Shown: positions 10,371 to 29,584 of the stretch, in pieces
Numbering within the stretch: position 1 is the first letter of the stretch
Layout of the letters: every line of letters begins with the position of its first letter
From: a virus
IMG/VR virus record: IMGVR_UViG_3300035698_003452
Location: 1 to 31,158 of that record
Reading direction: 5' to 3' (one strand)
Length of the DNA stretch: 31,158 nt
Translations under genes and position numbers: made by a program
The notes under the pieces: generated by a model
What the model was told of the DNA's origin: nothing
The model's input: only the letters and a program-made list of their open reading frames with translations
The model's database searches: none

Positions 10371-10491
10371 ATCTTGACAGTTGGAGCATGTATACTTCTT
10401 AAAAGAAAACTGCGACGGCTGACAGAGGATGCACCCTAGCCCGACCGTCCGGGCACGCCGTGTTGTCCTCTTCAGTTATAGGAGAGCGGAC

Positions 10492-11160
10492 ATGGTGAGT
10501 GTAGGCAACATGACGGTTGACGTATCGGCACAGATGGTCTACGGCAACAGGGTACCCCGAACAGCCTTCACCACTACGGGTGCAGGTGACAGTTCACTGA
10601 CTATCCATGCGGGGTCATACCACATGGCCCTCCAAGCGGCGGGTATTGCACGATGCAACATCATGCAGTATTCGTCCATGCTACCAGCAGATCTCACCAT
10701 CACGGCAGACCACGATTCATCCGGGCTCGTCACGGGTTCTGTGATGGATACTATCATGGCTGTTGAGCATGGTCGCTATGGAGACGTGTTAGCGGCCTGT
10801 GTGGCGTATGCGATGCTCACGTGTAGGGTAACGGGGGAAGTTGTGGGCGGTGTCGTTGCAGAGCGTGTTAGCACCTTTCCCGAGGCCATGTGTCTTAGGG
10901 CAGCTACCCAGCGGGTGAGGAACGATGCCAGAGCTAGCATTAGTGAGCTGTACAATGCAACATTTGCTGGGGATTGTGCCATTGGCCATACCGAAGACGT
11001 GTACGCTTCGCACAGAGTGAGTAAGGTATACGGCACGGTACTAGCGGCTATCTGTTTCACCAGCTACAGCTACCCGATACTTGAAAAGATTTCAAACTTG
11101 CTGGATGCGCCGTGGGTGGCTTGTGGGCGGTCAGATGCGGAGGAGTTTAGGTATGAGTGA
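10492..11160 (+). CDS. Pyruvoyl-dependent arginine decarboxylase (PvlArgDC-like)
   Basis: This protein has 222 residues from ATG 10492 (AGGAGAGCGGAC upstream). Key features are FTTTGAGDSS (about residues 26-35), then MALQAAGIARCNIMQYSSMLP (about 45-65). This matches the PvlArgDC region where an AGI-x-N segment leads to the SS-x-x-P self-cleavage site. Cleavage between Ser61 and Ser62 would create the pyruvoyl group. The enzyme converts arginine to agmatine and CO2. Known homologues (methanogens, Chlamydia AaxB) are 165-195 residues. Near the C terminus LEKISN is encoded by the palindrome at 11080. It heads a coupled run with the IbrA/IbrB-like genes. Agmatine could feed polyamine synthesis, DNA condensation, acid resistance or a base modification. 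Confidence 0.78.
   Translation: MVSVGNMTVDVSAQMVYGNRVPRTAFTTTGAGDSSLTIHAGSYHMALQAAGIARCNIMQYSSMLPADLTITADHDSSGLVTGSVMDTIMAVEHGRYGDVLAACVAYAMLTCRVTGEVVGGVVAERVSTFPEAMCLRAATQRVRNDARASISELYNATFAGDCAIGHTEDVYASHRVSKVYGTVLAAICFTSYSYPILEKISNLLDAPWVACGRSDAEEFRYE
11080..11096. promoter_or_regulatory. Dispersed palindrome, copy 6 (inside a gene)
   Basis: CTTGAAAAGATTTCAAA differs from the consensus at the first base. It is read in frame as LEKISN near the end of the decarboxylase gene, about 60 bp before the IbrA-like start. Confidence 0.65.
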
Positions 11161-12316
11161 CGGCGGCACAAGGAACGGTCTACGGTATTACATAGACCGT
11201 AACGTGTTTGAGGCGGGGCTTGACCGTATGCGCTTCATATTCGATGAATTTGACGATGTGATTGTGCATACGTCCGGGGGCAAGGATTCAACTGTCTGCA
11301 TACAGCTCGCCCTTATCGTGGCAAGAGAGCGCAATCGTCTACCTCTCAAGCTGATGTTTGTGGATCAGGAGGTAGAGCACAGTCAGACCATTGACCAGAT
11401 GATGCACGATATGGAGAGTCCTGAAATAGAGCCTCTGTGGATTCAGGTGCCTTACGAGTTCGAGAATGGCACGTCAACCGAGTGTCCCATGTTCACGCCT
11501 TGGGATGAGGAAGTGCGGGATGTGTGGATGCGGCCAAAGCGGGAGGGCAACCCGTATACTGAGAACGTCTACAAGACTCGCAACTTTTACAAGATGTTTG
11601 ATGCCTTTTGCCAGTACCATTTTGGGGATAGGCGGGTGGCCCGGATAGGCGGGGTGCGGTGCGAGGAGTCCCCGAACAGGCGCCTGGCTCTTACCGTGGA
11701 TGCAACCTATAAATGGGCCACGTGGGGCAAGGTGCCTACCCGCAAGACCAAGGAGCAGCACATTCTGTTTTACCCGATCTACGATTGGTCCTATCAGGAT
11801 GTGTGGAAGGCCATTCACGATAACGGGTGGCAGTACAACGAGCTATACGATTTGCAGTATCAGCACGGGGTGCCAGTGCAGATCATGCGGGTATCCAGCA
11901 TAATCCACGAGACAGCCATTCACGCCTTGATGTATCTTCAGGAGGTTGACACGGAGTTCTGGCCTAAGCTATGCAAGCGCGTGCCGGGGGTGGCGTCTGC
12001 GGGTATACTAAAGGAGGGTGCGTTTAGGTTCGCAAATGGCCTGCCTTACATGTTCGCCACGTGGCGTGAGTACGCGGATTACCTGTTAGAGCATTTGGTG
12101 ATAGACCCGGAGCAGAAGGAACGCTTCAGGGTTTCGTGGGGTAGGTTTGAGTCCGGTGCCAAGGTGGCGGGGTGGGTAGCAGACGTGGATTGGGATAGTG
12201 TGATTTGCGCTGCTGAGGCGCGTACGGTGTTGGTGGGTGACTGCCACGGGAATAAGCTTAACGCTGTCTCGGCAACTAAGCAATGGAATAAGCTTGAAGC
12301 GGAGGCAACGGCGTGA
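11153..12316 (+). CDS. IbrA-like PP-loop / PAPS-reductase-family protein
   Basis: This protein has 387 residues from ATG 11153, overlapping the decarboxylase stop, with GGAGGAGT upstream. It shows three hallmarks of the family: the PP-loop SGGKDS (residues 41-46), GGVRCEESPNRR (166-177) and FYPIYDWSYQDVW (206-218). The C-terminal extension and the following ParB-domain gene match the ibrA-ibrB pair of E. coli, which is described as activating prophage-associated eib genes. Family members bind ATP or PAPS and transfer adenylate or sulfur-type groups. Relatives occur in DNA phosphorothioation (DndC). Reaction and substrate here are not known. Confidence 0.8.
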   Translation: MSDGGTRNGLRYYIDRNVFEAGLDRMRFIFDEFDDVIVHTSGGKDSTVCIQLALIVARERNRLPLKLMFVDQEVEHSQTIDQMMHDMESPEIEPLWIQVPYEFENGTSTECPMFTPWDEEVRDVWMRPKREGNPYTENVYKTRNFYKMFDAFCQYHFGDRRVARIGGVRCEESPNRRLALTVDATYKWATWGKVPTRKTKEQHILFYPIYDWSYQDVWKAIHDNGWQYNELYDLQYQHGVPVQIMRVSSIIHETAIHALMYLQEVDTEFWPKLCKRVPGVASAGILKEGAFRFANGLPYMFATWREYADYLLEHLVIDPEQKERFRVSWGRFESGAKVAGWVADVDWDSVICAAEARTVLVGDCHGNKLNAVSATKQWNKLEAEATA

Positions 12317-12957
12317 TGTCTGAAAAAATTTCAAAGACAAGGATGAACGATATTCCAGAGTGCGTTAGGCATAATCCTGTGTCTATCATAAGGTGGGTAC
12401 CTATTGCTGAAGTTGTAGCCAATTCGTATAACCCGAACACGGTACCCAAGAATGAAATGCACCTGCTGTATGTGTCTATCAAGCAGGACGGGTACACTCA
12501 GCCTATCGTCACTGTGCGGGACCCGGAGCGCAAGCTGTACGTGATAGTGGATGGGTTCCACAGGTATAGCGTGATGAAATGCAACCCGGATATCTATGAG
12601 CAGAATCACGGCCTCCTTCCTATTGTGGTATTGAACAAGCCGCTGGAAGATCGGATGGCTTCTACGGTGAGGCACAACCGGGCACGGGGCAAGCACTCAA
12701 TTCAGGGCATGAGCAGTCTCGTGTTTCAGATGCTCAACGAGGGGTGCACTGACGCTGACGTGTGCAACAAGCTAGGTATGTCAGTGGAGGAGCTTGTCCG
12801 GGTTAAACACATCACCGGGTTTAGCAAGCTGTTTGAGAGTATCGAATATCGGCGTGAGTGGGTGACACGGAAGCAACTGAAGATCAAGCACGATAAGTCG
12901 CTGTGGAAGAATACACCTCCCGCAGCTACACCGAAGAGGAGAAAGGTACCAGCATGA
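12316..12957 (+). CDS. IbrB-like ParB-domain protein
   Basis: This protein has about 213 residues from ATG 12316, or one more from GTG 12313. GGAGG is at 12301. The ParB/sulfiredoxin-type domain is clear: RWVPIAEVVANSYNPN, then GYTQPIVTV, then VDGFHRYSVMK. A helix-turn-helix-like stretch follows (CTDADVCNKLGMSVEELVRV). In E. coli, IbrB acts with IbrA as a regulator. The second to seventh codons form the palindrome at 12319. It overlaps both neighbours by a few bases, so IbrA-like, IbrB-like and methyltransferase are probably made together. It could bind DNA, possibly the dispersed palindrome, which is speculative. Confidence 0.78.
   Translation: MSEKISKTRMNDIPECVRHNPVSIIRWVPIAEVVANSYNPNTVPKNEMHLLYVSIKQDGYTQPIVTVRDPERKLYVIVDGFHRYSVMKCNPDIYEQNHGLLPIVVLNKPLEDRMASTVRHNRARGKHSIQGMSSLVFQMLNEGCTDADVCNKLGMSVEELVRVKHITGFSKLFESIEYRREWVTRKQLKIKHDKSLWKNTPPAATPKRRKVPA
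12319..12335. promoter_or_regulatory. Dispersed palindrome, copy 7 (right after a start codon)
   Basis: TCTGAAAAAATTTCAAA has one mismatch. It follows the ATG of the IbrB-like gene directly and encodes SEKISK. Confidence 0.65.
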
Positions 12958-13583
12958 GCAATGCAGTTCAGGTAGGTGGGCATAGGGTTAGGTGTGGTAA
13001 TCTCACGGAGGGGTTGGGTGATCTGATGGGTGGCGAGAAGTGCGATATCTTCTACACCGATCCGCCGTGGGGACAGGGGAAACTCAAGTATTTCCATACG
13101 ATGCAATCTGCACTTGACGGGGTACAGGATAGCCCTCTCAGCTTGCCTGATTTCCTTGACTGCCTGTTCGGGCTTGCGGTGGCCAACTGCAAGGGTATCA
13201 TCATCATTGAGTATGGTGAGAAGTGGGAGCAGAACATACGCGATGCGGGGGATCGTGCGGGGGTGCAGTTCTGCGGTATGGCCTATCCGACGTACAGGGG
13301 CGGCAAGGGGCTACTGCCAATGCACCTGCACGTATACACGATGGACCCAGATGTGCAACCGGACCCGGACTATTACGGGCGGGTGACAGACAGCCATGAT
13401 TATGAAATGACACGTAGGGCGATTGCTCCCTTTGTGGTACCGGGAGGGATCATACTTGACGTGTGTTGCGGGTTTGGCAACACTGCCAAAATGGCACTCA
13501 AGAGCGGCATGCGGTTCTACGGGCAGGAGTTGACACAGGCGCGGCTTGACCGGGCGGTGAAGTTATTGGGGAGGCACGCATGA
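12954..13583 (+). CDS. DNA methyltransferase, DPPW type
   Basis: This protein has 209 residues from ATG 12954, overlapping the previous stop, with GAGGAGAAAGG upstream. Catalytic motif IV DPPW is at residues 36-39 (FYTDPPWGQG). The AdoMet motif I comes late (DVCCGFGNT, about 169-177). This order is usual for beta-class amino-methyltransferases that make N6-methyladenine or N4-methylcytosine. It is short and has no evident target-recognition domain, so it may rely on a partner such as the ParB-domain proteins or act nonspecifically. Anti-restriction or a step of DNA hypermodification are both possible. The next gene overlaps its end. Confidence 0.78.
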   Translation: MSNAVQVGGHRVRCGNLTEGLGDLMGGEKCDIFYTDPPWGQGKLKYFHTMQSALDGVQDSPLSLPDFLDCLFGLAVANCKGIIIIEYGEKWEQNIRDAGDRAGVQFCGMAYPTYRGGKGLLPMHLHVYTMDPDVQPDPDYYGRVTDSHDYEMTRRAIAPFVVPGGIILDVCCGFGNTAKMALKSGMRFYGQELTQARLDRAVKLLGRHA

Positions 13584-14383
13584 AGTTGGTAGTGACCATA
13601 CCTAGTTACGACCGTGAAGAGTGGCTTGCACATACAGTGGAGGGCGTACGGGATGTGATGCGTCCAGATGACTTGATAGTGTATGAGCAACCCAAAGGGA
13701 AGCCAGATGGGATTGGCACAGCACGCCGTAAGATTCACGAAATGGCGGTTGCGAAGCACGGGGAAGATGCCCTGTATCTTATGATGGATGATGACGCGCA
13801 TTTACAGGAGCACCCTGAGCTTGTGAACATTCGGTGGGCTATGCAGCATTTCGAGGAAATGCCGCTTTTGGGGGTGTGCCAGTGCACCATTAGCCTTGAC
13901 CCGCTGGTTGATACGTTCAGGAGACGCAGATGGGTTGCCCACTCTTACTTGATCAGGGGTGCGGTGTTGACAGGTGGGGGCAGCGTGGCTACAGCGTATC
14001 GGGATAACGAGAATCATGCAGATGAACTGTTGTTTTCGATGGAGGCGTGGTTGCACGGATGGACGGTGGGCACTACCGGGAGGTGTAGGATTCCACGGCA
14101 TGTGTTTTTACGCTCAAAGAAGTGCTTTGGGGAGGAACCTGAAGTTGCTAGTGATCCGAAGGCTGTGGGGGGTAGTGAGGGATCGGTAGCTGATGGAGCT
14201 GTTAGTCAGAGTCGGGTATGGGATGTACTGGTTGACAGGGGGCTTGCAGTTGTCTCGGGGTTTCACTATAGGGGGCAGCACAGGATACCAATAATGACAA
14301 GGGTGCAGGTTACAGGTAAGGGGTTGATGTGGCATAACACGTTTGAGCTGCGGCGTAAAAGGAACATGGGGTTGGCAGAATGA
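13580..14383 (+). CDS. GT-A-type glycosyltransferase-like protein
   Basis: This 267-residue protein is coupled to the methyltransferase by an ATGA overlap. The N terminus MKLVVTIPSYDREEW is typical of nucleotide-sugar-binding GT-A folds. GIGTARRKIHEMA and YLMMDDDAHL (DDD at 70-72, the metal and sugar-nucleotide site) follow. This layout resembles phage glycosyltransferases linked to modified bases (TET-associated type), but the family assignment is tentative. Substrate could be a modified base in phage DNA or a surface or capsid glycan. The context favours the former. Confidence 0.62.
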   Translation: MKLVVTIPSYDREEWLAHTVEGVRDVMRPDDLIVYEQPKGKPDGIGTARRKIHEMAVAKHGEDALYLMMDDDAHLQEHPELVNIRWAMQHFEEMPLLGVCQCTISLDPLVDTFRRRRWVAHSYLIRGAVLTGGGSVATAYRDNENHADELLFSMEAWLHGWTVGTTGRCRIPRHVFLRSKKCFGEEPEVASDPKAVGGSEGSVADGAVSQSRVWDVLVDRGLAVVSGFHYRGQHRIPIMTRVQVTGKGLMWHNTFELRRKRNMGLAE

Positions 14384-14404: not shown

Positions 14405-15130
14405 ATGTTTGAAAACTTTTCAGACGTGGTTGTGCAGAATCACAAGGCGAGAGACCCCGGCAAGGTGGTTGCTGCGCTTGAGGCACAGGGTGTTAGAGCT
14501 GTGGTTATGACCGATACCACGGACTACTATCGTGGCTCAGATAGGTCATTAAAGTATCTGGGGCTTGTGCGTAATTACTACCGTTGTCTTACTGCGGATA
14601 CAGCGGGACCATGGCAGATGGTAGTTCAGGACGATGTGCACATACCAGAGGGGGCTATTGCTCGCATGCAGCACGTGTTGGGGTTTGTGTCCCCTGATGC
14701 TCCGGTGTCGTTCTACCACCCTACAAACAAAAGCCACATAGAGGCGTGGGAGCAGGGGAAGCATGTACTCACCACGAGGGCCAATTTCTGGATTCAGTGC
14801 TTCTGTATGCCTAAGACTTTAGCGGTGGGTATGATAGAGTGGGCAGATAAAACTGTCTCCTATGGGTCCGCACCAGAGGATGCGATACTGGCAGCGTATC
14901 TGACGATGCGCAAGATATACACGCGCACGGTTCTGCCTGCCTTTGTGCAGCACGAGGGGTATGCGGATAGTGTACTTGGGCATAGTCCGAAGGTGGGTAA
15001 GTACGACAGACTCAGCATGACGTATGATCCTACTTTCGCTGTGGAATCTGTGGATTGGGAGTCTGAGTTTGCTGACCCGTACTGTGACAGCATGACGGGT
15101 AGGCTACAGGACAAGTGGCTTGTAGGCTAG
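14405..15130 (+). CDS. Second glycosyltransferase-like protein
   Basis: This 241-residue protein has GPWQMVVQDDVHIPEGAI (QDD at 75-77) as its probable metal-binding motif. EDAILAAYL and PAFVQHEGYADSVLGH come later, as in GT25-like and other GT-A enzymes. It is distinct in sequence from the gene before it. The start codon leads straight into the palindrome (ATG then TTTGAAAACTTTTCAGA), giving MFENFSD. The ribosome site is weak (GGCAGGTGGGTA). A two-step sugar addition with 13580-14383 is possible but not shown. Confidence 0.6.
   Translation: MFENFSDVVVQNHKARDPGKVVAALEAQGVRAVVMTDTTDYYRGSDRSLKYLGLVRNYYRCLTADTAGPWQMVVQDDVHIPEGAIARMQHVLGFVSPDAPVSFYHPTNKSHIEAWEQGKHVLTTRANFWIQCFCMPKTLAVGMIEWADKTVSYGSAPEDAILAAYLTMRKIYTRTVLPAFVQHEGYADSVLGHSPKVGKYDRLSMTYDPTFAVESVDWESEFADPYCDSMTGRLQDKWLVG
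14408..14424. promoter_or_regulatory. Dispersed palindrome, copy 8 (right after a start codon)
   Basis: TTTGAAAACTTTTCAGA has one mismatch in the right arm. It begins at codon 2 of the second glycosyltransferase-like gene, so a bound protein could block translation-coupled transcription. Confidence 0.65.
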
Positions 15131-15151: not shown

Positions 15152-15633
15152 ATGGTGGTACTACAGAGCAAGGGCGTAACGTACGTATGCACGAATGACC
15201 ATGCGGAGGTGCAGCGTGTGTTCGATGAATTTTACCAGCAGATTACTGGGGTTGGCGGGACAAGGGATGTGCTAAGATACCCGGTAGGTCGGTATGGTAC
15301 TTTGCCTATGTTGAGGGCAGTTTGGTGGGGTCTACGTGCGTATGCTACAGGCGGACTACTACGCATTTGACCAATGCCTATGTTAGCAGTGAGTTCAGAA
15401 GGCGTGGGGTATTCACCACGATGCTTGTATTGGCCATTAACGCATCGAGGTTGCGTGGGGCTGAAAGATTGGCGGCGTATGCGGCAATGGCCAGTCTGCC
15501 TATCTTTTTGCGGTATGGGTTTGTGGCGCAGGGCAAGGTGCGATCAGGGATGTTGAAGGTTCCCAAGTATGCGGGTGGGGGTGAGGTGCCATCCACTACG
15601 ACATACGTGGTTAAGCAACTAGGGAGGGTGTAA
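15152..15633 (+). pseudogene. Frameshifted GNAT acetyltransferase
   Basis: The first part, in the frame of ATG 15152, gives MVVLQSKGVTYVCTNDHAEVQRVFDEFYQ and continues to about 15290. From about 15291 another frame continues with VWYFAYVEGSLVGS and AYVSSEFRRRGVFTTML, ending at 15633. The second part holds the GNAT acetyl-CoA loop (R-R-R-G-V-F) and the C-terminal YGF strand. One missing base, or a minus-one shift near 15280-15300, joins them into about 160 residues. No classical slippery heptamer is seen, so a broken gene or a sequencing error is likelier than programmed shifting. GNAT enzymes acetylate amines, and agmatine or a base amine would be candidate substrates here. Confidence 0.65.
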
Positions 15634-16256
15634 TGGACGTTGTTACTATGGGTATTGGTGATATTCTACCGTATTGGCGCAACCCGCGCAAGAATGCGGA
15701 AACTGTGGTGGAGCTGAAGCTGTCGATCAGGGAGTTCGGGTTCAACGTGCCCTTGGTACTTGATCAGGAGAATGTGATCACAGCAGGCCATGCGCGGTAC
15801 CGGGCCATGCTTGAGTTGGGCGAGCAGACGGTGCCTTGCGTTATCTCGGATATGGATGAAACGAGGGCCAAGGAGTTCCGCATTGCGGACAACAAAATTC
15901 ACGACCTCACCAACTGGGTAGTTGAGGGGTTGCTGAAGGAGCTTGGCAGTAGTGAGTATGCGCTTACTGTGCCGGGGTTCACCACTGGCGATATGGAGGT
16001 GCTGTTCCCTGATACAGCGGCAGACGGTCTAGGATTCACAGAAGACGGCCTAGGAGGCGATGGGGGGTCAGAAGGTGCCAGCACAGGGGGTGATCCATTC
16101 GAGGGCGGTACAGAGCAACCTGCGGACACCTCAGCAGGCTCAGAGGGTGACGAAGACAGAGTTGAGCTGATGTGCCCTAGCTGTCTGGAAGAGGGTGTGT
16201 ACTCGAAGACTGCGTTGCTTGGCACGGGGGAGGATGACGATGAAAGCGGAGAATAG
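15633..16256 (+). CDS. ParB/sulfiredoxin-domain protein, first of a tandem pair
   Basis: This 207-residue protein has an N-terminal ParB-like domain (about residues 5-100). Its landmarks are YWRNPRKNAETVVELKLSIREFG, FNVPLVLD, and ITAGHARYRAMLELGEQTVPCVI. Then come an acidic Gly/Ser-rich linker and a CPSC pair near the C terminus. The G-H-A-R-Y motif is where ParB-family proteins bind nucleotide. Such ParB-domain genes often sit just before phage terminases, sometimes fused to methyltransferases. It overlaps 16240-16899, its paralogue. A regulatory, nuclease or modification-guide role cannot be told apart from sequence. Confidence 0.75.
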   Translation: MDVVTMGIGDILPYWRNPRKNAETVVELKLSIREFGFNVPLVLDQENVITAGHARYRAMLELGEQTVPCVISDMDETRAKEFRIADNKIHDLTNWVVEGLLKELGSSEYALTVPGFTTGDMEVLFPDTAADGLGFTEDGLGGDGGSEGASTGGDPFEGGTEQPADTSAGSEGDEDRVELMCPSCLEEGVYSKTALLGTGEDDDESGE

Positions 16257-16899
16257 AAGACTCGCAGAGATCACGCCATATAAAAGAAATCCAAGGAGCA
16301 ACGCGGAGACGGTAGCTGCGCTTGTGGAGTCGATCCGAAAATACGGCTTCAACGTGCCTTTGGTACTGGACCGTAAGGGCGTGATAATCTGCGGCCATGC
16401 GCGGTTCGCGGCGGCGGTATTGTCGGAGCTGAAGACTGTGCCATGCATCACGGTAGAGTTGAGCAAGGCGAAGGCCAAGCGGTACAGGCTTGCAGACAAC
16501 AAGATTCAGGACATGTCCAAGTGGGATACCAAGAGTCTTGTCACGGAGTTGCGGGAGCTGCCCTCCTTTGACGACATACCGGGATTCAGGGATTCGGAAG
16601 TGGCCATGTACACTAGGGCTTTCTCGAATGGTCCGACGCTGCCACCTATTGACACGGGTGGTGACGACGGGACACGGACTGACGACATCCCGAGGGGTCC
16701 GGGTGTGCCAGCTAGGCGACAGGTGCCGGGGTCTGGCCCTCCCGAGATTGTGCAAAGGCAGGTTGACGCGGCACAGTTGAAGGCCGATGACAAGTTCGCC
16801 GCAAAGGCGAGGACGTATCAGGGGGGGCTTATCAGCGTGACGTGTGTTCACTGCAATGAGCTGTTCATGATATTGCGTGCCGACTTGGTACGAATGTGA
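16240..16899 (+). CDS. ParB/sulfiredoxin-domain protein, second of a tandem pair
   Basis: This protein has 219 residues from ATG 16240 (GGGGGAGG nine bases upstream). ATG 16234 is too close to that site. It is homologous to the gene before it: YKRNPRSNAETVAALVESIRKYG, FNVPLVLD, and ICGHARFAAAVLSELKTVPCI. A proline- and glycine-rich linker leads to a C-terminal CVHC pair (VTCVHCNELF). The pair arose by duplication and has diverged mainly in the linkers. It ends just before the promoter at 16901, so it closes the accessory operon. Confidence 0.75.
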   Translation: MKAENRRLAEITPYKRNPRSNAETVAALVESIRKYGFNVPLVLDRKGVIICGHARFAAAVLSELKTVPCITVELSKAKAKRYRLADNKIQDMSKWDTKSLVTELRELPSFDDIPGFRDSEVAMYTRAFSNGPTLPPIDTGGDDGTRTDDIPRGPGVPARRQVPGSGPPEIVQRQVDAAQLKADDKFAAKARTYQGGLISVTCVHCNELFMILRADLVRM

Positions 16900-16960: not shown

Positions 16961-17437
16961 ATGAATATAGGGCATTTCGAGAAGTTCGTGCAGGGTTGTC
17001 GTTGGCAGTTTGCGAAGACGTATGCGGCACATTCTCCGCACTGGTATACAGTTAGGGAGTGGGTGCCGGGTACGGAAAGGATGTTTGCGGCCATAGCGTA
17101 TTTCGTAAACAAGTATGGCTCTGACGAGCAGTACAGGGGCAAGCCGTATAGGACGTTCTACCATACCGGGTGGAAGTACTGGACGATGCATGATACGGTT
17201 GCTACGACTAACCTTATCAACAGGACGAATAAAGAGAGTTGCGTGCCCTATCGGGGTATCAACTGGGTGCCGGAAAAGCAGGCGGCGGGGTACCATGAGA
17301 TTGCGGGTTTGCCGGAAGGTCCCGACTGGGAAGTTACGCGGCGTGAGTTTGACGCGAACGATGACATTGTAGAGGTGCGTGGGCTACTGGCCAGCGGTGG
17401 GCAGGGGCAGCTACCACTAGAGGATTTGTGGCTATGA
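16961..17437 (+). CDS. Hypothetical protein upstream of terminase
   Basis: This 158-residue protein is not recognised. It is rich in aromatic residues (HSPHWYTVREWVPG, YRTFYHTGWKYWTMHDT) and ends in an acidic, Gly-rich tail. It is the first gene after the 16901 promoter and overlaps the terminase small-subunit start by 4 bp. Co-expression with packaging genes suggests a head-assembly or replication-to-packaging function, without motif support. Confidence 0.6.
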   Translation: MNIGHFEKFVQGCRWQFAKTYAAHSPHWYTVREWVPGTERMFAAIAYFVNKYGSDEQYRGKPYRTFYHTGWKYWTMHDTVATTNLINRTNKESCVPYRGINWVPEKQAAGYHEIAGLPEGPDWEVTRREFDANDDIVEVRGLLASGGQGQLPLEDLWL

Positions 17438-19487: not shown

Positions 19488-19676
19488 GTAGGCAGCATTA
19501 ACCGTGCCGACAAAAAATCTATTTTATCTTTCAAGGTGTACCAAGTACCACGGAGGGGGGTCGAGTTCGTTCTAGGGGTACTCAGGGCCTTCTACGGTAG
19601 GCACATTTTGGGGTTTTTGGCACTTTTGGTGAAAATAGTTTAAGCGTGGTGGTGGGCAGAGTTGGCCGTGGCAGGG

Positions 19677-27863: not shown

Positions 27864-29327
27864 ATGAAGCGATTGGGATTAGTGGTTGCAGTGCTGTTGG
27901 CAGTAGTGGCAGGTGTGTACGCGGTTGATATTGACCATACGTTCACGCCTACAGCGGTCCCTCAGCGGGGACTGGTCTACATGAAGGATGTGGACTTCAC
28001 GACTACGCAGAATATCGACGTGAACCTGCCGAATAACCACAAGTACGTGGTTGAGGGTGTGTACGTTCGGTCCTCTGCTGTCACTACGCTTTCAGCCGGG
28101 GCGGTGGTGGCGATCAATGAAGTGACTTCGGCGGGTGCGGCGGTGCAAACCGTTATGCCTGCTGTGACGTTGCCGAGTACGGATGCCACGGGTGACATGC
28201 ATGACCTTGGCCCCCTTACTGAAGGGCAGGATGTGCCTGGGTTTGTCTCACTGCGTGATGTGGCTACGGCGGGTACGGACCAGCTGCACGCACAGGTGGC
28301 CGGGTTGACGAATACCGCTACGGTGGCGATCACCTCGGGTATTACGAATCCGGCTACTCCGCGCAACCTTGTCATCACGTTTACGGATGCGGCAAGCGAT
28401 GACCTTGCGGGTACCGTTACTGTGGTTGGTACTGATTGGTCCGGGCGTGCGGTGACCGAGGCTACTACCATTGTCACGGGCACGGTGAGCTACGTGGGTA
28501 GTCAGGTATTCAGGACGGTTACCAGTGTCTCCCGTGCTATGGGAGCTACGGGCGCGGCGGGTGACACGATGGACCTTGGCTATGGCGTAAAGCTCGGCCT
28601 TCCCTTCAACCCGGAAACGCAAGGCGGTCTCGCAGTTGACAAGGTTGAGGTGTATACTTCTGCATCGACTATCGCGTTGACCGAGAGTACGGCAGCAGTT
28701 ACTAACTTCGCGTTGCTTAGTACTACGATTACGAACTATACGTATTCGGGTGACACGATTACTAACTTCGCGTTGCTTAGTACTACGATTACGAACTATA
28801 CGTATTCGGGCAGCACGATTACCAACTATACGTATTCCAGCTCTACCATTACGACTGTGGTGGATACTGCTACGAATACGTATAGCGTGATTATTAGCAC
28901 CCCTGTAACTACCAACTCGTATACGGTGTGGCCTAGCACTGCGACGGCTACCAATACGTACGTTATATATACTAATGCTGCGGCTACAGCAGTGTCAGTA
29001 TTGACAAGTACGGCTACTGCTACCAATGCGTATGTTATATATACTAATGTTGCGGGTACAGCAGTGTCAGTATGGACTAACGCCACTGCGGCAGCTACGG
29101 TTGGGACTCGTGCGTATGAGGCGGCGGGTGCCGTTGACACTACGTATGGCTCGTTCACTGCTACGACTGCGCCGAATGCAGCACGCTCGTATGGTGTGTA
29201 CTACAGCCTCACCGGACCTGCACGGGCAGACGGCATTGACGGATCGAACCTGCTGCGCTTCGGCATCACCGGGAGCACGGCCACGAACGATACCAAGGAT
29301 GTGATAATGCGCGTGCTAGCGTACTAG
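27864..29327 (+). CDS. Secreted, Thr/Ser/Ala-rich repeat protein, fibre-like
   Basis: This 487-residue protein starts with a classical Sec signal peptide (MKRLGLVVAVLLAVVAGVYA, cleavage after AYA). The mature part has beta-rich Thr/Val/Ala sequence and a region of near-identical repeats: TNFALLSTTITNYTYSG twice plus shorter variants (about residues 279-326), then two NxYVIYTNxAxTAVSV units. The C terminus (about 410-487) is a compact domain (YGVYYSLTGPARADGIDGSNLLRFG). A signal peptide is odd beside a capsid gene. It may be a surface-exposed or exported protein, a decoration fibre, or a gene acquired from the host. No family is recognised. Confidence 0.65.
   Translation: MKRLGLVVAVLLAVVAGVYAVDIDHTFTPTAVPQRGLVYMKDVDFTTTQNIDVNLPNNHKYVVEGVYVRSSAVTTLSAGAVVAINEVTSAGAAVQTVMPAVTLPSTDATGDMHDLGPLTEGQDVPGFVSLRDVATAGTDQLHAQVAGLTNTATVAITSGITNPATPRNLVITFTDAASDDLAGTVTVVGTDWSGRAVTEATTIVTGTVSYVGSQVFRTVTSVSRAMGATGAAGDTMDLGYGVKLGLPFNPETQGGLAVDKVEVYTSASTIALTESTAAVTNFALLSTTITNYTYSGDTITNFALLSTTITNYTYSGSTITNYTYSSSTITTVVDTATNTYSVIISTPVTTNSYTVWPSTATATNTYVIYTNAAATAVSVLTSTATATNAYVIYTNVAGTAVSVWTNATAAATVGTRAYEAAGAVDTTYGSFTATTAPNAARSYGVYYSLTGPARADGIDGSNLLRFGITGSTATNDTKDVIMRVLAY
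28701..28820 (+). repeat. Tandem 60-bp repeat in the fibre-like gene
   Basis: Bases 28701-28750 recur exactly at 28761-28810, and a partial third unit follows. The 60-bp period keeps frame and adds 20 residues per unit. The near-identity suggests recent expansion or slippage. Confidence 0.9.
28947..29078 (+). repeat. Second tandem repeat, 72-bp period
   Basis: The block from 28947 recurs from 29019 with a few substitutions, encoding NxYVIYTNxAxTAVSV twice. It is older than the 60-bp repeat because more changes have accumulated. Confidence 0.8.
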
Positions 29328-29397: not shown

Positions 29398-29584
29398 GTG
29401 TAAGCAAGTTGTGTGCCGACAAAAAATCTATTTTATCTTTTAAGGTGTACAAAGCACCACGGAGGGGGGTCAAACGTCCTCACGGGGCTGTGAGGGGCCT
29501 TTACGGATGGCACATTTGGGCCTTTTGGGCCTTTTTGGCTGAAAAAGATTACGGCTCACAGGGCTGTACCCAAGGTCAAACTTT

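Follow-up and report, generated by a model that had tools for sequence, protein, structure and literature searches.

Introduction

The closest described relative of the protein reported here is the pyruvoyl-dependent arginine decarboxylase (PvlArgDC, PF01862) of M. jannaschii, represented by structures 1mt1, 1n2m, 2qqc and 2qqd. In 2003, Tolbert et al. reportedly described agmatine in contact with Ser52 of one protomer and, in the next protomer, with the side chain of Asp35 and the carbonyls of Gly44 and Val46. We take Asp35 to be the sole side chain that grips the guanidinium group; the corresponding site in the protein described below is His44. Glu109 of the M. jannaschii enzyme is important for cleavage (PMC2720952). 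SpeD-derived pyruvoyl enzymes of phages have the S-adenosylmethionine decarboxylase fold and, are stated to be non-homologous to the M. jannaschii enzyme (PMC9992855). Here we analyze a PvlArgDC homologue from an uncultivated bacterial virus, encoded by IMG/VR virus record IMGVR_UViG_3300035698_003452, all 31,158 bases of which (positions 1 to 31,158) are referred to as the window.

A predicted PvlArgDC-family proenzyme encoded by a phage

The first-pass annotation described a phage-borne PvlArgDC at 10492-11160. The open reading frame (222 aa, plus strand) is present as described, and the same record carries terminase, portal, head-morphogenesis and major head genes, which supports a phage origin. 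The features of the gene are as follows:

10480-10485, plus strand: Shine-Dalgarno-like AGGAGA shortly 5' of the ATG, read from the sequence
10492-11160 including the stop, plus strand: PvlArgDC-family pyruvoyl decarboxylase proenzyme, 222 aa (PF01862 match and AlphaFold model)
10621-10623, plus strand: His44 codon, at the M. jannaschii Asp35 position (alignments; profile alignment gap-free at the site)
10657-10659, plus strand: Asn56 codon, equivalent to M. jannaschii Asn47, self-processing (alignments)
10672-10677, plus strand: Ser61-Ser62 codons, equivalent to M. jannaschii Ser52-Ser53, with the predicted cleavage site between them and Ser62 the predicted pyruvoyl precursor (alignments)
10861-10863, plus strand: Glu124 codon, equivalent to M. 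jannaschii Glu109, catalysis/processing (alignments; PMC2720952 for the role)
11078-11097 (listed at 11081), plus strand: copy of the palindrome TTGAA-N5-TTCAA in the 3' end of the gene, read from the sequence

A longer form could start at the ATG at 10429; the 222-aa form is already poorly modelled over residues 1-20. No independent assembly covering the decarboxylase gene was found.

The match of the protein to PF01862 is far beyond chance (E 3.1e-22; 79.6 bits, cut-off 22.7) and spans profile positions 1-160 of 161. The stricter NCBIfam equivalog models are missed (TIGR00286/NF009064, 32.5 versus 106.95 bits and 30.4 versus 207); thus, the protein is a divergent member of the family. A PHROG search with the decarboxylase found no family. 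The three motifs on which the annotation had relied are genuine and align with M. jannaschii counterparts: GAGDSS with the SSEGE loop, AGIARCN with AGIGNVN, and YSSMLP, which contains the SSMLP site, with ISSIMP.

Structure prediction leads to the same family assignment. The AlphaFold2 model, built from an alignment of 13 sequences, has a mean pLDDT of 88.3 and is weak at residues 1-20 and the last ~20. All 12 Foldseek matches in the PDB at E 0.001 or better are chains of M. jannaschii PvlArgDC. In VIA-align, the comparison with this enzyme (best, 1n2m/2qqd) gives Z 21.0 and an rmsd of 1.8 Å over 152 of 153 residues, and the next family is pyruvoyl histidine decarboxylase, with Z 7.0. The four-layer fold of the M. 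jannaschii enzyme is present in the predicted model. S-adenosylmethionine decarboxylase is not among the significant fold matches, an absence that does not by itself exclude it; the sequence clearly belongs to PF01862. Nothing significant came up in a structural search among predicted viral proteins.

From the fold and the retained residues we infer that the window protein is very probably a self-cleaving pyruvoyl decarboxylase. The proenzyme would cut itself between Ser61 and Ser62 into a beta chain of 61 residues and an alpha chain with the pyruvoyl group at its start. By analogy with the M. jannaschii enzyme, three protomers would assemble with the active sites at their interfaces.

A conserved histidine replaces the guanidinium-binding acid

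Equivalents of Asn47, Ser53 and Glu109 are invariant in all full homologue rows of our alignment. The Asp35 position is His in all ten rows of one subfamily, hereafter His35, and Asp or Glu in all 64 other homologue rows (a number that includes some loci fetched twice). The subfamily also has an invariant HAG motif upstream of the histidine, absent from other homologues. Since the alignment of the subfamily profile to 1n2m has no gap at the Asp35/His44 site, misalignment does not account for the substitution. The annotation had proposed that missing substrate-binding residues in a structural model would count against it, and the outcome is divided: the catalytic machinery is kept, whereas the presumed substrate contact is lost. 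The acidic guanidinium-binding residue that we would expect of an arginine decarboxylase at position 35 is His44 here. The arginine-specific reading therefore does not stand as worded: with His at this position throughout the subfamily, arginine as the substrate is unproven. Family membership and the gene neighbourhood of one relative (see below) speak for arginine as the physiological substrate, the invariant histidine against it, and we put this slightly short of an even chance.

The same residues raise the possibility, conceivable though somewhat doubtful in our view, that these proteins are not arginine decarboxylases, and that the pocket with the histidine takes another amino acid or one already attached to something. 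The invariant His in place of Asp/Glu, together with a HAG motif unseen elsewhere, speaks for such a change, and the alignment contains no compensating new acid conserved across the subfamily. Gene context also differs in one member: in a low-GC viral contig (L065:406-3083) the His35 decarboxylase comes last in an overlapping run, after an ATP-grasp-like gene and an LPG_synthase_C gene (phosphatidylglycerol-lysyltransferase-like, E 2.9e-16). However, another member is paired with a polyamine gene, and a histidine could bind guanidinium indirectly; the argument for a changed substrate is drawn from a sequence position. Since the acid expected to bind arginine is lost throughout, 'arginine decarboxylase' labels in databases may be wrong for the His35 branch, gut Bacteroidales included.

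Distribution of the His35 subfamily

The subfamily is recognized by the signature HAG-x-[YF]-H-[MF]-A-L, which is found in nine viral contigs, the window included, and in one Parabacteroides record. It surfaced only through a search of plasmid records, in which tblastn retrieved a P. distasonis homologue with 36.8% identity (E 2e-20) and the sequence YHMAL. With the P. distasonis protein as bait, IMG/VR yielded contig L064; a three-row alignment added seven more (L065-L071), and one of ten rows again gave these eight. In direct pattern scans of IMG/VR, the window protein, M. jannaschii PvlArgDC and small mixed alignments found nothing. In the phylogenetic tree, the His35 subfamily forms one side of a branch with support of 76/88, and the window sequence sits on a long branch.

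Phage-type genes accompany the subfamily on several contigs: terminase and portal genes beside the decarboxylase in L070, endonuclease VII in L064, a tail spike and ribonucleotide reductase in L066, a T4-type RNA ligase in L068 and a helicase in L069. The His35 branch recurs in several unrelated phages. Searches of 50,697 deposited phage records with four baits and the L070 protein retrieved no PF01862 member, and no PvlArgDC was found in the relatives identified through the terminase (L002-L009), most of which are fragments. Outside viruses, the distribution given in the annotation, mainly archaea and bacteria such as Chlamydia, is too narrow, since the family occurs in 143 of 297 genomes sampled from one bacterial phylum.

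The long branch of the window protein, and the repeat element found in the coding sequence of its C-terminal tail, could be taken as signs of passive or decaying cargo without a function. Yet the frame is open, the ribosome-binding site and all catalytic residues are kept, the gene overlaps the next one translationally and the subfamily recurs in unrelated phages, so that we regard functionless cargo as very unlikely.

An IbrA-linked cassette downstream of the decarboxylase

The genes that follow the decarboxylase in the window are:

11153-12316, plus strand: IbrA-like PP-loop protein ('PAPS reductase'; phrog_2302, E 2.2e-80; PF01507 and DUF3440)
12313-12957, plus strand: IbrB-like ParB-domain protein (phrog_2159, E 2.4e-66)
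12954-13583, plus strand: amino-methyltransferase-like protein (DPPW motif; N6_N4_Mtase match under the Pfam cut-off)
13580-14383, plus strand: glycosyltransferase-A-like protein, read from the MMDDDAH motif alone, with no family match
14405-15130, plus strand: weak glucosyltransferase match (phrog_854, E 1.6e-4)
15322-15633, plus strand: GNAT acetyltransferase-like protein (family matches)
15633-16256, plus strand: ParB-domain protein of the methyltransferase-associated kind (phrog_620/498)
16240-16899, plus strand: second ParB-domain protein (41% identity to the preceding one over 140 aa)
16961-17437, plus strand: protein with the N-terminal domain of the methyltransferase-like cassette protein of L070/L071 (35% over 82 aa)

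The order in the window is decarboxylase, IbrA, IbrB, methyltransferase-like gene, two glycosyltransferase-like genes, GNAT gene, two ParB-domain genes, and small and large terminase genes. The decarboxylase stop and the IbrA start overlap by 8 nt (ATGAGTGA). Assignment of the IbrA/IbrB pair follows from a PAPS-reductase-like gene adjoining a ParB-like gene, and the FCV-1 pair aligns with both.

The coupling to IbrA proposed in the first-pass annotation is borne out beyond the window. In L070 and L071 the decarboxylase overlaps IbrA by 23 nt, in the opposite gene order; their IbrA is 42% identical to that of the window. The order in these contigs, reversed relative to the window, is methyltransferase-like gene, glycosyltransferase, IbrA, decarboxylase and terminase, with ParB-like genes ahead of the methyltransferase-like gene in L071. 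Common to L070/L071 and the window are the position of the terminase, the domain encoded at 16961-17437 and, weakly, the ParB proteins; no alignment is obtained between the glycosyltransferases of the contigs and those of the window. Because L070 and L071 are closely related, the IbrA linkage counts as two independent cases, that is, one independent repeat. IbrA is present on three of the nine viral contigs of the subfamily, versus 215 of the 50,697 phage records, in which the decarboxylase is absent. Thus, the cassette does not need the decarboxylase, as most IbrA-bearing phages lack it, and the enzyme is also employed apart from the cassette, as IbrA is absent from six of the nine contigs. 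The repeated coupling offers a testable handle on the role of the widespread and unexplained IbrA/IbrB pair of phages.

The decarboxylase lies upstream of packaging genes in both the window and L070/L071, which would suit production of agmatine or another amine to neutralize the charge of capsid DNA. The near-terminase position is common to the whole cassette, though, and nothing is specific to this role; the charge of agmatine is small compared with that of spermidine. We consider charge neutralization most improbable.

IbrA homologues share the PP-loop SGGKDST, and alignment of the window, L070, Hendrix and FCV-1 proteins has no invariant cysteine column, so that the catalytic or iron-sulphur cysteines of true PAPS reductase/DndC are lacking. 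This speaks against a redox reduction of PAPS or a sulphur transfer of the DndC type. PADLOC reports only weak DndC and methyltransferase matches, and the structure prediction of IbrA has a pLDDT of 39. A PP-loop ATPase without a conserved cysteine might activate a base carbonyl and join an amine to it, comparable to TilS acting with lysine on tRNA; TilS, the lysidine synthetase, belongs to the N-type ATP pyrophosphatases and links a molecule bearing an amine to a base (PMC11938285). If so, the decarboxylase and IbrA would act in succession in a single pathway of nucleic-acid modification, in which the amine is attached to a base to give amine-decorated phage DNA, and the methyl-, glycosyl- and acetyltransferases of the cassette may elaborate the product. 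This conjugation scheme is quite unlikely in our estimation; if true, it would be a previously undescribed type of DNA hypermodification and would give IbrA/IbrB a function.

Polyamine metabolism as an alternative context

A different neighbourhood is found in viral contig L069 (L069:6374-7976), where a gene of the deoxyhypusine-synthase family (PF01916, E 1.1e-39) immediately precedes the decarboxylase. This deoxyhypusine-synthase-family gene shares 60% identity with its counterpart next to a bacterial PvlArgDC (L046). Five of the bacterial PvlArgDC loci retrieved show the pairing as well, and SpeD-type arginine decarboxylases mostly cluster with the deoxyhypusine-synthase-family gene speY (PMC10407285). 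The L069 pairing is the best evidence at hand and points to some subfamily members making a polyamine precursor.

Together with membership in PF01862 and the existence of phage pyruvoyl arginine decarboxylases of another fold (PMC9992855), this pairing would fit an ordinary auxiliary metabolic gene. The enzyme would then convert L-arginine to agmatine, from which host enzymes make putrescine and higher polyamines for virus growth, and the adjacency to IbrA would be incidental. Three observations make this unlikely for the window protein: the guanidinium-binding acid is replaced by His across the subfamily, the overlap with IbrA is repeated in two gene orders, and searches of the window for arginase/agmatinase and deoxyhypusine-synthase families gave no match. 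Among the nine subfamily contigs, arginase/agmatinase was found in none and deoxyhypusine synthase in L069 alone.

Overall, we lean slightly towards a self-cleaving pyruvoyl amino-acid decarboxylase of the PvlArgDC fold, belonging to the His35 subfamily, whose amine feeds the IbrA-linked cassette. Because the invariant histidine stands where the guanidinium-holding acid would be, the substrate would be arginine bound in another way or an amino acid related to it. The amine would most likely go to the cassette and not be released as a general polyamine; candidate recipients are the PP-loop ATPase, the ParB-like proteins, the methyltransferase, the glycosyltransferases and the acetyltransferase. 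Taken by itself, the idea that the product serves the IbrA cassette is tentative, with the chances a little below balanced.

Repeats and apparent inteins

The palindrome TTGAA-N5-TTCAA is present in 14 dispersed copies in the window, versus 0.71 expected, mostly at gene ends (positions 8, 2828, 3870, 7429, 9995, 11081, 12320, 14409, 16929, 19693, 23193, 25284, 25948 and 29654). Some copies lie just 5' of a TTGACA promoter-like repeat, and the copy in the decarboxylase gene encodes part of a C-terminal tail absent from other subfamily members. The relative L003 has four copies, versus 0.15 expected. These palindromes resemble the operators/stoperators of a repressor or a partition-site system. 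Dispersed repeats of 66-139 nt, 77-94% alike, are found at 2578-2643, 19494-19642 and 29403-29551 of the window, and tandem repeats of 60-72 nt at 28699-29069, within a 487-aa open reading frame downstream of the major head gene. Apparent inteins are present in the portal protein of L003 (L003:7744-10218) and in the large subunit of ribonucleotide reductase of L066 (L066:5187-8954). Both inserts are long and begin with Cys; that of L003 ends with HN.

Comparison with known systems

The window protein shares with M. jannaschii PvlArgDC the predicted fold, the SS site and the equivalents of Asn47, Ser52/53 and Glu109, and differs from it in overall identity (~20%), in His for Asp35 and in longer N- and C-termini. 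Chlamydial AaxB and its relatives are members of this family with a similar length (27% identity), with GG-x-x-A-E and the cleavage region in common; unlike the window protein, AaxB has Asp at position 35, a Thr-Ser cleavage site and a longer PPQPFET loop. P. distasonis WP_005856730.1, annotated as a pyruvoyl-dependent arginine decarboxylase, belongs to the His35 subfamily and is 40% identical to the window protein over 183 aa. In contrast to the window, its neighbours are superoxide dismutase, thioesterase, nfo and nhaD, with no IbrA.

SpeD-derived arginine/ornithine decarboxylases of pelagiphage HTVC201P and other phages are likewise phage-encoded, use a pyruvoyl cofactor and decarboxylate amino acids. 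In the literature searched, a PvlArgDC-fold decarboxylase is not described in a phage and the phage pyruvoyl decarboxylases reported earlier have the S-adenosylmethionine decarboxylase fold; the window protein would accordingly represent a second fold. TilS is a mechanistic analogue only: it shares the PP-loop class with IbrA and acts on tRNA with lysine. The cassette of Microbacterium phage Hendrix resembles that of the window, in that glucosyltransferase, methyltransferase and acyltransferase genes accompany an IbrA homologue (39% identity), but has no decarboxylase. Since these genes occur together in Hendrix, the cassette is more widespread than its association with the decarboxylase.
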